Assembly: GCA_902561795.1 (NCBI GenBank)
Contig: CACERG010000015.1
Coordinates: forward strand, 1 to 49,204
Length of the DNA: 49,204 nucleotides
Reading direction: 5' to 3'
Source: an uncultured Bacteroidota bacterium
GTDB taxonomy: Bacteria; Bacteroidota; Bacteroidia; Flavobacteriales; Flavobacteriaceae
Below the pieces are notes generated by a model. The model saw only the letters and a list, made by a program, of their open reading frames with translations. It searched no databases and was not told the DNA's origin. Numbering within the stretch: the first letter of the stretch is position 1; each line of letters opens with the position of its first letter. Below, one piece after another: positions 16,681 to 44,595 of this stretch. The position numbers and the translations under genes were made by a program.

Positions 16681-16711
16681 TTGTTGAAATCAGACTAACA
16701 GTTTATATTTG
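16681..16711 (+). promoter_or_regulatory. Bacteroidota-type promoter of the SRP RNA gene
   Basis: TTGTTG at 16681-16686, a 17-base spacer, then TATATTTG at 16704-16711. This closely matches the Bacteroidota consensus TTG-N17-23-TAnnTTTG. Counting the final G as -7 places the start at about 16718, exactly at the first GGGC of the SRP RNA. Confidence 0.75.
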
Positions 16712-16716
16712 CTAAT

Positions 16717-16812
16717 GGGCAAGTTCTACACAACCAGCTCCTGTTGAATCCCCCAGGGCGGGAACGCAGCAAGGGTAGGCGGTCGTAGCGGTGTGATGTA
16801 GGCAGCTTGCCC
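16717..16812 (+). ncRNA. ffs: signal recognition particle RNA (4.5S-like, small bacterial type)
   Basis: RNA of about 96 nt that binds Ffh and directs co-translational membrane targeting. The ends GGGCAAG (16717-16723) and CTTGCCC (16806-16812) form a closing stem, which can extend by three A/T pairs on each side. The apical part carries the Ffh-binding core CAGGGCGGGAACGCAGCAAGG, with a GGAA-type loop and the asymmetric AGCA side, on the plus strand. No Alu domain is present. The promoter at 16681-16711 predicts the same 5' end. The SDR gene begins 16 bases after it. Confidence 0.9.
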
Positions 16813-16827
16813 ATTTTATTTAAAAAT

Positions 16828-42761: not shown

Positions 42762-43580
42762 ATGCAAAAATTACCTAAAATTGGATTACCAGTAATTTTA
42801 TTGGTTGTGGTCCTACTTATATTTATTTCAAAATCATCAATTAATATTGGTTACGGAGAAGCGGGAGTTCTTTTTAAGACTTTTGGAGGTGGAGTAGTAA
42901 CTGATCAAGCACCACTTGGTGAGGGATTTCATATTATAGCGCCTTGGAATAAGGTGTTTATATACAATGTGAAACAGCAAGAATTTTTTGAGGGAAATAT
43001 GCAAGTGCTTTCTTCAAATGGATTAGAAATATCACTTGATGTTTCTGTTTTGTACCAACCTAAGTACAGTGAGCTAGGATTACTCCATAAAACTAAGGGT
43101 GAAAACTATGTTAATATTGTTTTAATTCCTCAAATCAGAGCTGTTGCAAGATCTGTAGTTGGTCGCTACACACCCGAACAGCTTTATTCGACTAAACGCG
43201 ATGCTATTCAAAATGAAATATTTGAAGAGACTCAAAAAAATGTTGAATCTCAACATATTCAATTAAATGCAGTTCTTGTTAGAGATGTTACCCTTCCAGT
43301 TGCCATAAAGGAAGCCATCGAAAGAAAATTACGTCAAGAGCAAGAGGCTTTAGAATATGAGTTTAGAATTGAAAAGGCAAAGCAAGAAGCTGAACGTCAA
43401 AGAATTGATGCTGAAGGAAAAGCTACGGCTAACAGAATTTTAAGTGCCTCATTGACACAAAAGATCCTCCAAGAAAAAGGAATTGAAGCAACAACAAAGT
43501 TGTCAGAGTCAGCAAATTCAAAGGTCATTATTATTGGAAGTGGGAAAGATGGTCTCCCAATAATTTTGGGGAATCAATAA
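42762..43580 (+). CDS. prohibitin-like SPFH/Band 7 membrane protein
   Basis: Membrane-anchored protein of 272 aa. One N-terminal hydrophobic segment (about 7-24, GLPVILLVVVLLIFISKS) precedes an SPFH domain (about 28-210: GEAGVLFKTFGGGV, GEGFHIIAPWNKVFIYNVKQQE, VGRYTPEQLYSTKRDAIQ). A coiled-coil rich in Glu, Lys and Arg follows (about 190-230), and then the conserved tail SANSKVIIIGSGKDGLPIIL. Such proteins form large ring scaffolds, in some bacteria around the FtsH protease. The role here is not defined. It is the last gene before the his operon promoter. Confidence 0.88.
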   Translation: MQKLPKIGLPVILLVVVLLIFISKSSINIGYGEAGVLFKTFGGGVVTDQAPLGEGFHIIAPWNKVFIYNVKQQEFFEGNMQVLSSNGLEISLDVSVLYQPKYSELGLLHKTKGENYVNIVLIPQIRAVARSVVGRYTPEQLYSTKRDAIQNEIFEETQKNVESQHIQLNAVLVRDVTLPVAIKEAIERKLRQEQEALEYEFRIEKAKQEAERQRIDAEGKATANRILSASLTQKILQEKGIEATTKLSESANSKVIIIGSGKDGLPIILGNQ

Positions 43581-43587
43581 ATATGTT

Positions 43588-43614
43588 TTGATTTAAAAAA
43601 AATAAATATATTTG
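43588..43614 (+). promoter_or_regulatory. promoter of the histidine operon
   Basis: TTG at 43588-43590 (within TTTTG), a 16-base spacer, then TATATTTG at 43607-43614, followed by C as in many flavobacterial -7 boxes. The spacer is one base below the usual 17. If the last G is -7, transcription starts at about 43621, which is the A of the leader peptide ATG. Confidence 0.65.
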
Positions 43615-43620
43615 CACTTT

Positions 43621-43677
43621 ATGAAAATATTATTACATCATGCACATCAATTTAAAAACTACTCAAACGAGATGTAG
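43621..43677 (+). CDS. hisL: his operon leader peptide
   Basis: An 18-codon ORF encodes MKILLHHAHQFKNYSNEM, then TAG. Three of the four codons at positions 6-9 are CAT (His-His-Ala-His, 43636-43647), a strong enrichment for so short a peptide directly before hisG. Its 3' part (43662-43669) carries the segment that competes with the downstream terminator. I read it as a histidine sensor: the ribosome pauses at the CAT codons when charged tRNA-His is scarce. No Shine-Dalgarno sequence is present, and the predicted transcript would start at the ATG itself. Confidence 0.75.
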   Translation: MKILLHHAHQFKNYSNEM

Positions 43678-43713
43678 ATAAATTGTTTATGAAATAATTT
43701 AAACCCGTTTGAG
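43662..43713 (+). promoter_or_regulatory. antiterminator pairing of the his attenuator
   Basis: CTCAAACG (43662-43669, inside the leader ORF) is an exact reverse complement of CGTTTGAG (43706-43713), which forms most of the 5' arm of the terminator. The two structures exclude each other. A ribosome paused at the His codons leaves 43662 onward free, favouring antitermination. A ribosome at the stop codon (43675-43677) would cover the segment and let the terminator form. A small ATAAA-TTG-TTTAT hairpin (43678-43690) lies inside the loop. Confidence 0.65.
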
Positions 43714-43731
43714 AAATCAAACGGGTTTTTT
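43701..43731 (+). terminator. intrinsic terminator of the his attenuator
   Basis: A perfect 12-bp stem, AAACCCGTTTGA (43701-43712) with TCAAACGGGTTT (43717-43728), is closed by a GAAA tetraloop and runs into a T stretch (43726-43731). It lies 24 bases after the leader stop codon and 12 bases before the hisG ATG. The position between leader and first structural gene points to conditional termination rather than an operon end. Confidence 0.85.
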
Positions 43732-43743
43732 AATTTAAATATT

Positions 43744-44595
43744 ATGATAAGACTTGCTATACAAAAATCAGGAAGACTAAATAAGGGGTCACTGAATTTG
43801 TTAACAGACTGTGGAATTTCAATTGAAAATGGTGAAGATCAATTAAAGGTTTCGGCACGTAACTTTCCAATCGAAATTTTCTTTTTACGTAATAGTGATA
43901 TTCCTCAATATCTTAAAGATGGTGTGGTAGACCTTGCCATAGTAGGTGAAAACCTTCTCAAAGAGAAAGAACTTAAATTAAAAGTTATTGAAAAACTTGG
44001 TTTTTCGTCCTGTAGAACATCTATCGCCGTCCCTAATAATGTGCAATTCAATGGGATTCAAGATTTGGATGGAAAGCGTATTGCTACATCTTATCCAAAC
44101 ACAGTAAATTCTTTTTTAAAGAAAAATAAAATTAAGGCTGATTTACATATCATTAATGGATCAGTGGAAATAGCACCTAATATTGGTTTAGCTGACGCAA
44201 TATGCGACATCGTATCAACCGGTAGTACATTATTTAAAAATAACCTTAAAGAAGTTATTAAAATTGATGAATCTCAAGCTGTACTTGTAAAGGGTAATAA
44301 TTTGAAAAATGAAAAATTAAGTTATATAGAGAAGCTTCAATTCAGAGTTCAAGCCGTTTTAAGAGCTAAAAAATCAAAATATATTTTACTTAATGCTCCC
44401 AATAATAAAATTAAATCTATCAGCTCTATACTTCCAGTGTTGAAAAGTCCTACTGTTTTACCCTTAGCTCAAGAGGGTTGGAGCTCATTACATTCAGTTA
44501 TAAATGATCAGGATTTTTGGGAAGTTATAGATCAATTGAAAGAAGCTGGTGCAGAAGATATATTAGTATGTCCAATAGAAAAGATGGTTTTGTAA
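43744..44595 (+). CDS. hisG: ATP phosphoribosyltransferase, long form
   Basis: First and feedback-controlled step of histidine synthesis: joins ATP and PRPP. Opening IRLAIQKSGRLNKGS, then DLAIVGENLL, and the PRPP-binding region DAICDIVSTGSTLFKNNL. The C-terminal 75 residues form the regulatory ACT-like domain of the long HisG form, so no HisZ is needed and allosteric inhibition by histidine is expected. The length is 283 aa. It is the first structural gene after the attenuator and overlaps hisD by one base (TAATG). Confidence 0.95.
   Translation: MIRLAIQKSGRLNKGSLNLLTDCGISIENGEDQLKVSARNFPIEIFFLRNSDIPQYLKDGVVDLAIVGENLLKEKELKLKVIEKLGFSSCRTSIAVPNNVQFNGIQDLDGKRIATSYPNTVNSFLKKNKIKADLHIINGSVEIAPNIGLADAICDIVSTGSTLFKNNLKEVIKIDESQAVLVKGNNLKNEKLSYIEKLQFRVQAVLRAKKSKYILLNAPNNKIKSISSILPVLKSPTVLPLAQEGWSSLHSVINDQDFWEVIDQLKEAGAEDILVCPIEKMVL

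Follow-up and report, generated by a model that had tools for sequence, protein, structure and literature searches.

A predicted leader-peptide attenuator of the histidine operon in an uncultured Bacteroidota bacterium, and similar leaders in its relatives

How might a Bacteroidota bacterium adjust the transcription of its histidine operon to the supply of histidine? The window (the whole stretch of 49,204 nucleotides that was analysed) ends in histidine genes in the order hisG-hisD-hisC-hisB-hisH-hisA, which reach the window's end. Pfam domains found across this operon are HisG, Histidinol_dh, Aminotran_1_2, IGPD, and GATase; hisA lay outside the Pfam scan and was named from its sequence. Between the upstream Band_7 gene and hisG is an intergenic gap of 163 bases, and the initial annotation had proposed that this gap holds an attenuator. 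Its 18-residue leader with His-His-Ala-His (43621-43677) was confirmed base for base, and we also find in the sequence its perfect 12-bp stem with a GAAA loop and a T-run (43701-43731) and the exact complementarity of 43662-43669 to 43706-43713. Comparison with relatives supports the same reading, as the leader, the terminator, and the pairing are conserved. Judging from sequence comparisons, we put the probability that this element is a ribosome-mediated transcription attenuator of the his operon at roughly 0.9. The features are as follows.

42762-43580: the upstream Band_7 gene, ending 120 nt before the terminator hairpin
43607-43614, + strand: putative -7 promoter element TATATTTG, recognized in the sequence by the consensus TAnnTTTG
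43621-43677, + strand: leader ORF MKILLHHAHQFKNYSNEM, 18 codons, from ATG 43621 to the stop codon TAG 43677
43636-43647, + strand: putative regulatory codons CAT CAT GCA CAT (His-His-Ala-His), with His codons at 43636-43641 and 43645-43647
43662-43669, + strand: segment B, CTCAAACG, the candidate antiterminator strand within the leader ORF, an exact complement of 43706-43713
43679-43701, + strand: hairpin C:D (43679-43688 with 43692-43701), enclosed by the B:E pairing
43701-43712, + strand: segment E, the 5' arm of the terminator
43706-43713, + strand: CGTTTGAG, part of E plus one loop base, the partner of B in the antiterminator
43717-43731, + strand: segment F, the 3' arm of the terminator, plus the T-run
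43701-43712 with 43717-43728: terminator stem, 12 pairs, GAAA loop, T-run to 43731
43744-44595, + strand: hisG (Pfam HisG), the first gene of the controlled operon

The sequence has a leader ORF rich in codons for the operon's product and an intrinsic terminator between this leader and the first structural gene, and there is a mutually exclusive antiterminator that is conserved as a pairing. The amino acid that would be sensed is the product of the downstream operon, as identified by the Pfam matches of the his genes. The promoter box ends 6 nt before the leader's ATG. Because a passage on the sigma-A promoters of F. psychrophilum places the TAnnTTTG box at -12 to -5 (PMC9723704), we predict that transcription starts near 43619, with a 5' UTR of about 2 nt, so that the leader mRNA would be near-leaderless. 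Of 134 family members, 57 have such a box in the 60 nt that precede the leader start, at distances of 4-49 nt from it, as compared to 10 of 134 after one shuffle each. No TAnnTTTG box was found between the terminator arm and hisG in the window's sequence. Also, the T-run is only 12 nt from hisG, so transcripts from the leader promoter must cross the terminator to reach the operon.

Could the arrangement be accidental? An exact 8-nt complement to the 12 nt at 43702-43713 arose in 1 of 5,000 dinucleotide shuffles of 43621-43699, and at least three His within 7 residues are found in 11 of the window's 1,136 ORFs of 8-40 amino acids (both strands). In the 1.73-Mb assembly, the terminator's exact pattern has a single match. 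Of 149 genomes of the family, 72 carry the strict pattern CTCARRCG-N24-50-CCGTTTGAG, once per genome, while the reversed pattern has 4 matches in total. For 40 of the 72 matches the position of hisG was listed, and in all 40 cases the match is on the strand of hisG, 30-120 nt ahead of it; the remaining 32 were left out of this check. We considered whether the B...E module might be reused for other genes and rejected the idea, given at most one strict match per genome in the 149 genomes and that all 40 checked matches precede hisG. As for other attenuators in the same genome, we tried two families: ilvD does not have such a leader, and the Chorismate_bind gene was not found in the 81%-complete assembly.

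From this arrangement we infer the start site, the translation of the leader, stalling, the efficiency of termination, and the response to histidine. RNA polymerase would start about 2 nt before the leader's ATG, and a ribosome would load at once. With ample His-tRNA, the ribosome would reach the TAG and cover B, E would pair with F, and transcription would stop at around 43731. With scarce His-tRNA, the CAT codons would hold up the ribosome, whose front edge would then be at 43648-43657. This would leave B free to pair with E immediately after E is transcribed, with C:D enclosed between them. Once B:E has formed, E would be unavailable to F and the polymerase would continue into hisG. As modelled here, the design is simpler than the enteric relay: the finishing ribosome itself would hide the antiterminator strand.

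We folded the RNA outside a placed ribosome, whose last covered base was taken to be 15 nt past the first base of the P-site codon, at a stage when F is not yet made. A stall at any of the window's three His codons leaves the ribosome ending at 43648-43657 with B (43662-43669) free, and a ribosome at the stop codon covers the RNA up to 43687 and masks B, so the geometry that the initial annotation described does work. Across the 134 family members, the probability of B:E exceeds 0.5 in 133 with the ribosome at the first His, in 102 at the last His (the other 32 fail to reach 0.5), and in none at the stop codon, where the terminator exceeds 0.5 in all 134. We also used a looser measure, the pairing of the E arm with anything upstream. 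The window scores 0.94 on this measure with no ribosome, 0.94 again with the ribosome at either the first or the last His, and 0.20 once the ribosome is at the stop. The values for E. coli hisL are 0.31 with no ribosome, 0.64 whether it stands at the first or the fourth His, 0.56 for the last His, and 0.63 for the stop codon, so static folding does not tell stalled from finished ribosomes on this proven attenuator. Static folding with a placed ribosome does not capture the enteric relay. Because it fails to reproduce the hisL switch, we consider these results to be only suggestive. The terminator, at about -17, is more stable than the antiterminator, at -12.7, which implies that the switch must be kinetic.

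The initial annotation also saw no separate protector hairpin. This is right for the window, where the antiterminator has a probability of 0.98 without a ribosome and pairing of the leader's 5' half (A, which includes the His codons) with the segment after B (C) is a weak protector. Because the antiterminator forms without a ribosome, an untranslated window leader should read through, unlike the classic case. The remark on the missing protector does not hold as a general rule. Across the family, the antiterminator without a ribosome is above 0.5 in 75 of 134 members and at or below 0.5 in 59. Furthermore, among 37 representatives chosen at below 80% similarity, cognate A:C duplexes are more stable than permuted ones (-12.15 vs -10.01, 0 of 5,000 permutations, in a test that ignores relatedness). 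In 35 of the 37, the self-fold C:D, which lies in front of E, is more stable than the shuffle mean. Because A:C and C:D compete with each other, A:C could serve as a protector when no ribosome is present.

How well is this conserved? We detected hisG in 334 of 397 sampled genomes of the family and took 80 further loci from named genomes. A first-round set of 110 hisG loci (30 others and the 80 from named genomes) was examined, and in all 110 a short leader that contains two or more His precedes a terminator of the general form CCGTTTG...CAARCGG. Our script called 109 of these; L012 was called by eye, with the leader MKNLHVHTHSLVLAQAR and a GTG start, as the script's hairpin and ORF there are wrong. 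E could not be placed in L066, which left 109 loci for the first-round scoring of B:E, and 105 of these have 7 or 8 pairs. B is poor (5-6 nt) in L015, L021, L039, and L056. In the 134 family members, B:E has all 8 pairs in 112, 7 in 21, and 6 in one. Leaders contain two to six His (only two in 7 of the 134, some of them among the window's nearer relatives), encoded by CAT 496 times and by CAC 35 times. The initial annotation had staked its reading on conservation of the His codons and the competing pairing in relatives, and within the family both are kept.

The core of B, E, and F is nearly invariant inside the family, and two-sided changes that preserve pairing are few. In B:E, pair 1 changes from C-G to A-T in 3 members and to T-A in one, pair 2 from T-A to A-T in 2, and pair 5 from A-T to G-C in one. 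In E:F, the pair one base before the CCG core changes from C-G to A-T in 12 and to T-A in one. As a separate observation, AG follows B in the window (43662-43671) and in relatives, and the stretch CTC-AAAC/AAGC-GAG can fold into a small separate hairpin.

To look beyond the family, we used a sample of 296 genomes from the phylum, of which 252 have hisG. In all we compared 198 hisG upstream regions: the 110 first-round loci, 60 chosen outside the family, and 28 of 29 further loci of the phylum sample; L123 was lost at the orientation step. The 60 were mostly high-scoring, and matches of about E = 1e-27 to 1e-33, mostly from family f17, were left out. Our caller required a short ORF with at least three of one residue within 7, then an intrinsic terminator. 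In these 198 rows, which are not independent (the two collections overlap, and the exact duplicates L037, L039, and L040 were removed from one alignment but kept in these counts), the caller found His most often, in 161, with Thr next at 12, Ser at 10, and lower counts for all other residues. On the reverse strand it found 0 of 198 for every residue, and in control stretches 700-1500 nt upstream it found His in 0 of 110. A separate version of the caller with at least three His gave 160 of 198, versus 0 of 198 for the reverse strand. If no terminator is required, then a His-rich ORF is present in all 32 regions from L141 to L172 and in 21 of the 28 from L173 to L200, with 7 of 88 for the reverse strand (L112-L200). 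In several of these comparisons, the leader ORF was begun at the innermost start codon that still leaves two His within 7, so some leaders are clipped.

Outside the family, B, E, and F often differ in sequence. For example, L142 has GGTAGGCC with GGCTTACC, and L141 has CAGGTAG with CTACCTG. A few elements do resemble the family's (CCGTCTG in L121, L129, and L135). So the leaders that the initial annotation would have us look for in relatives do occur in other families, often with B:E partners of a different sequence. Cognate B:E duplexes outside the family have a mean of -9.91, as compared to -7.22 (sd 0.36) for permuted ones, with 0 of 5,000 permutations as low; this test too ignores relatedness, and its n of 34 includes related members. 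In L155, L158, L187, and L190, and in L056 and L067 from the family sample, most swapped segments pair at least as well as the called B. Similar switches, often with other sequences, thus appear to precede the his genes of many relatives.

Not every region fits. The caller found no His leader with a terminator in 30 of the 60 regions that were fetched from outside the family, and at least 4 of these (L145, L147, L157, and L188) show a terminator by eye or in an earlier run. We regard the terminator caller as conservative: the way it handles loops makes it miss the E. coli his terminator as well as those that we see by eye in L145, L147, and L188, and it called a terminator in L157 in one run and lost it in a later one. 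In four more distant regions (L234-L237), hisG comes straight after another ORF, which looks like hisE, and there is no His leader. Also, members of family f23 (L191, L194, L196, L197, and L198) have His-rich leaders, with a GTG start under the caller, and no intrinsic terminator by the caller. The spacer between their leader and hisG is rich in C (0.21-0.31) and poor in G (0.06-0.10), a composition that would suit Rho-dependent attenuation. Part of f8 (L152, L154, L159, and L163) and f3 (L165, L166, and L169-L172) have His-cluster ORFs that end 67-127 nt before hisG and again no intrinsic terminator by the caller. Other f8 members (L143, L144, and L151) do have a called intrinsic terminator. 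The stretch ATGTATGTTTCTACGCGAAATAACAACC after the stop codon is common to L165, L166, and L171.

Given such families, might the window's leader also act on hisG through translation or Rho rather than through an intrinsic terminator? The idea draws its support from the families in which no terminator was called, including one whose spacers are C-rich and G-poor. In the window and its family, the terminator with its T-run is strong, conserved, and in competition with B:E, so we think that this is very unlikely there.

Another possibility is that the leader peptide, with its C-terminal tail of QAR, QAK, or SNE, is itself the conserved functional product, such as an arrest peptide or a small protein that acts in trans. 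The tail is indeed very similar within large groups of leaders. Nevertheless, the frame in which B is read varies. In 115 of 134 leaders B is in one frame and the peptide mostly ends in ...QAR or similar (for one of the 115, L016, the best-scoring B is out of register), and in 14, including the window, it is in another frame and the peptide ends in ...SNE or similar. In the remaining 5, the stop codon is within B (3 leaders) or B overlaps or follows the stop (2 leaders). In other families the tails differ, yet cognate B:E pairs still beat swapped ones. So we rejected the conserved tail as a functional product, and consider it highly improbable. That leaders read B in different frames is our main reason for taking B to be conserved as RNA and not as peptide.

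Finally, the hairpin might be nothing but the terminator of the Band_7 gene, with the His-rich ORF and the complementarity of B as accidents; the end of this gene, at 43580, lies 120 nt upstream of the hairpin, and a homologue lies up to 1500 nt upstream in 92 of 110 loci, but a promoter box stands between it and the leader, the T-run is so close to hisG, the excess of His over the next residue (161 vs 12 of 198) would go unexplained, and the 18 loci of 110 without a detected Band_7 homologue keep both leader and terminator, so the element is not tied to the upstream gene and we rejected this explanation as having next to no chance of being correct.

We return to the attenuator, which does not correspond to a family that Rfam would annotate. 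A search of the window with Rfam's covariance models found no related attenuator family at the gathering score. His_leader (RF00514) had no match at that score, nor was it among the 18 matches up to E = 10, and Trp_leader (RF00513) scored 12.3 bits against a cut-off of 41. A histidine T-box before hisG would be another way to sense the amino acid, and no T-box model matched in the strict or the relaxed search. The best relaxed match, SSRC10 (29.4 bits against a cut-off of 56), spans the leader and the terminator, and we judged it to be due to chance. Elsewhere in the window, at 16710-16816, Rfam identifies a small signal recognition particle RNA (RF04183, 113.4 bits).

The initial annotation had none of the near-leaderless promoter, the conservation of B regardless of frame, or the spread beyond the family. 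We offer a tentative generalization, with the odds somewhat against it: in much of the Bacteroidota, leader-peptide attenuation may govern the his operon, with a shared way of sensing and readouts that can be exchanged. In most of the sampled families, the readout would be an intrinsic terminator, and the finishing ribosome itself would hide the antiterminator strand, in the window's clade on a near-leaderless mRNA, and some families would have a His-rich leader without a detectable intrinsic terminator, as in f23 with its Rho-suited spacer. If so, the f23 leader would be a His-leader attenuator of another kind. That the logic is the same and the sequences often differ in several families of Bacteroidota points to a repeated origin or to old, fast-changing elements, and the wide distribution in the phylum deserves a survey. 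These elements could also supply a new RNA family for annotation. Translation initiation in this group is described as relying on signals other than Shine-Dalgarno (PMC9723704), and the his attenuators are a concrete candidate for an attenuation experiment in such a group.

How do these elements relate to known systems? The mechanism is textbook for enteric bacteria, where the his design passes the signal along a chain of hairpins. In the trp attenuator, a ribosome that has finished the leader sits near the stop codon and thereby covers the antiterminator strand. We found no description of a his attenuator in Bacteroidota in the open-access literature. A 2004 paper (Vitreschak et al., FEMS Microbiol Lett) reportedly mentions, in its abstract, candidate attenuators in some Bacteroidetes/Chlorobi, so we do not claim priority for the phylum as such. 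In the available part of a paper on the his genes of Bacteroidota and related groups, attenuation is mentioned once, for enterics (PMC8305728). Similarly, a passage in a 2010 paper describes leader-peptide systems as known only in Proteobacteria and Actinobacteria before its own case from the Firmicutes (PMC2965389). A 2013 survey suggests, in the passage on this point, that amino acid attenuators may have a gamma-proteobacterial origin with very few transfers (PMC3766115); that survey was based on Rfam models and could see only known ones. The repeated origin or old, fast-changing elements suggested by the Bacteroidota leaders would be an alternative to this proposal.

The window's element is like enteric hisL (RF00514) in its short leader with His codons, its intrinsic terminator before hisG, and its putative stalling-dependent antitermination. 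The E. coli leader has seven His in a row, more than in any of the family's leaders, and unlike enteric hisL, the window and its family have B inside or at the end of the leader ORF, where the finishing ribosome would cover it directly. In this the element resembles trp-type attenuators (RF00513), in which the finishing ribosome also hides the antiterminator strand near the stop; the amino acid and the sequence differ, and the protector hairpin is weak in the window. His-leader attenuators have also been predicted in the Bacillus cereus group, in Peptostreptococcaceae and relatives, and in Erysipelotrichales (PMC9413887). As described there, these were found in the same way, by a His-rich leader and a terminator/antiterminator before his genes; they belong to another phylum, and we liken them to ours by description and not by sequence. 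The closest to home is F. psychrophilum, whose transcriptome gave strong clues for leader-peptide attenuation before amino acid operons (PMC9723704). The passage on attenuation names no operon, and the main text in the version available does not contain the word histidine. Still, these suggested attenuators are from the same family as the window and would belong to the same class of mechanism.
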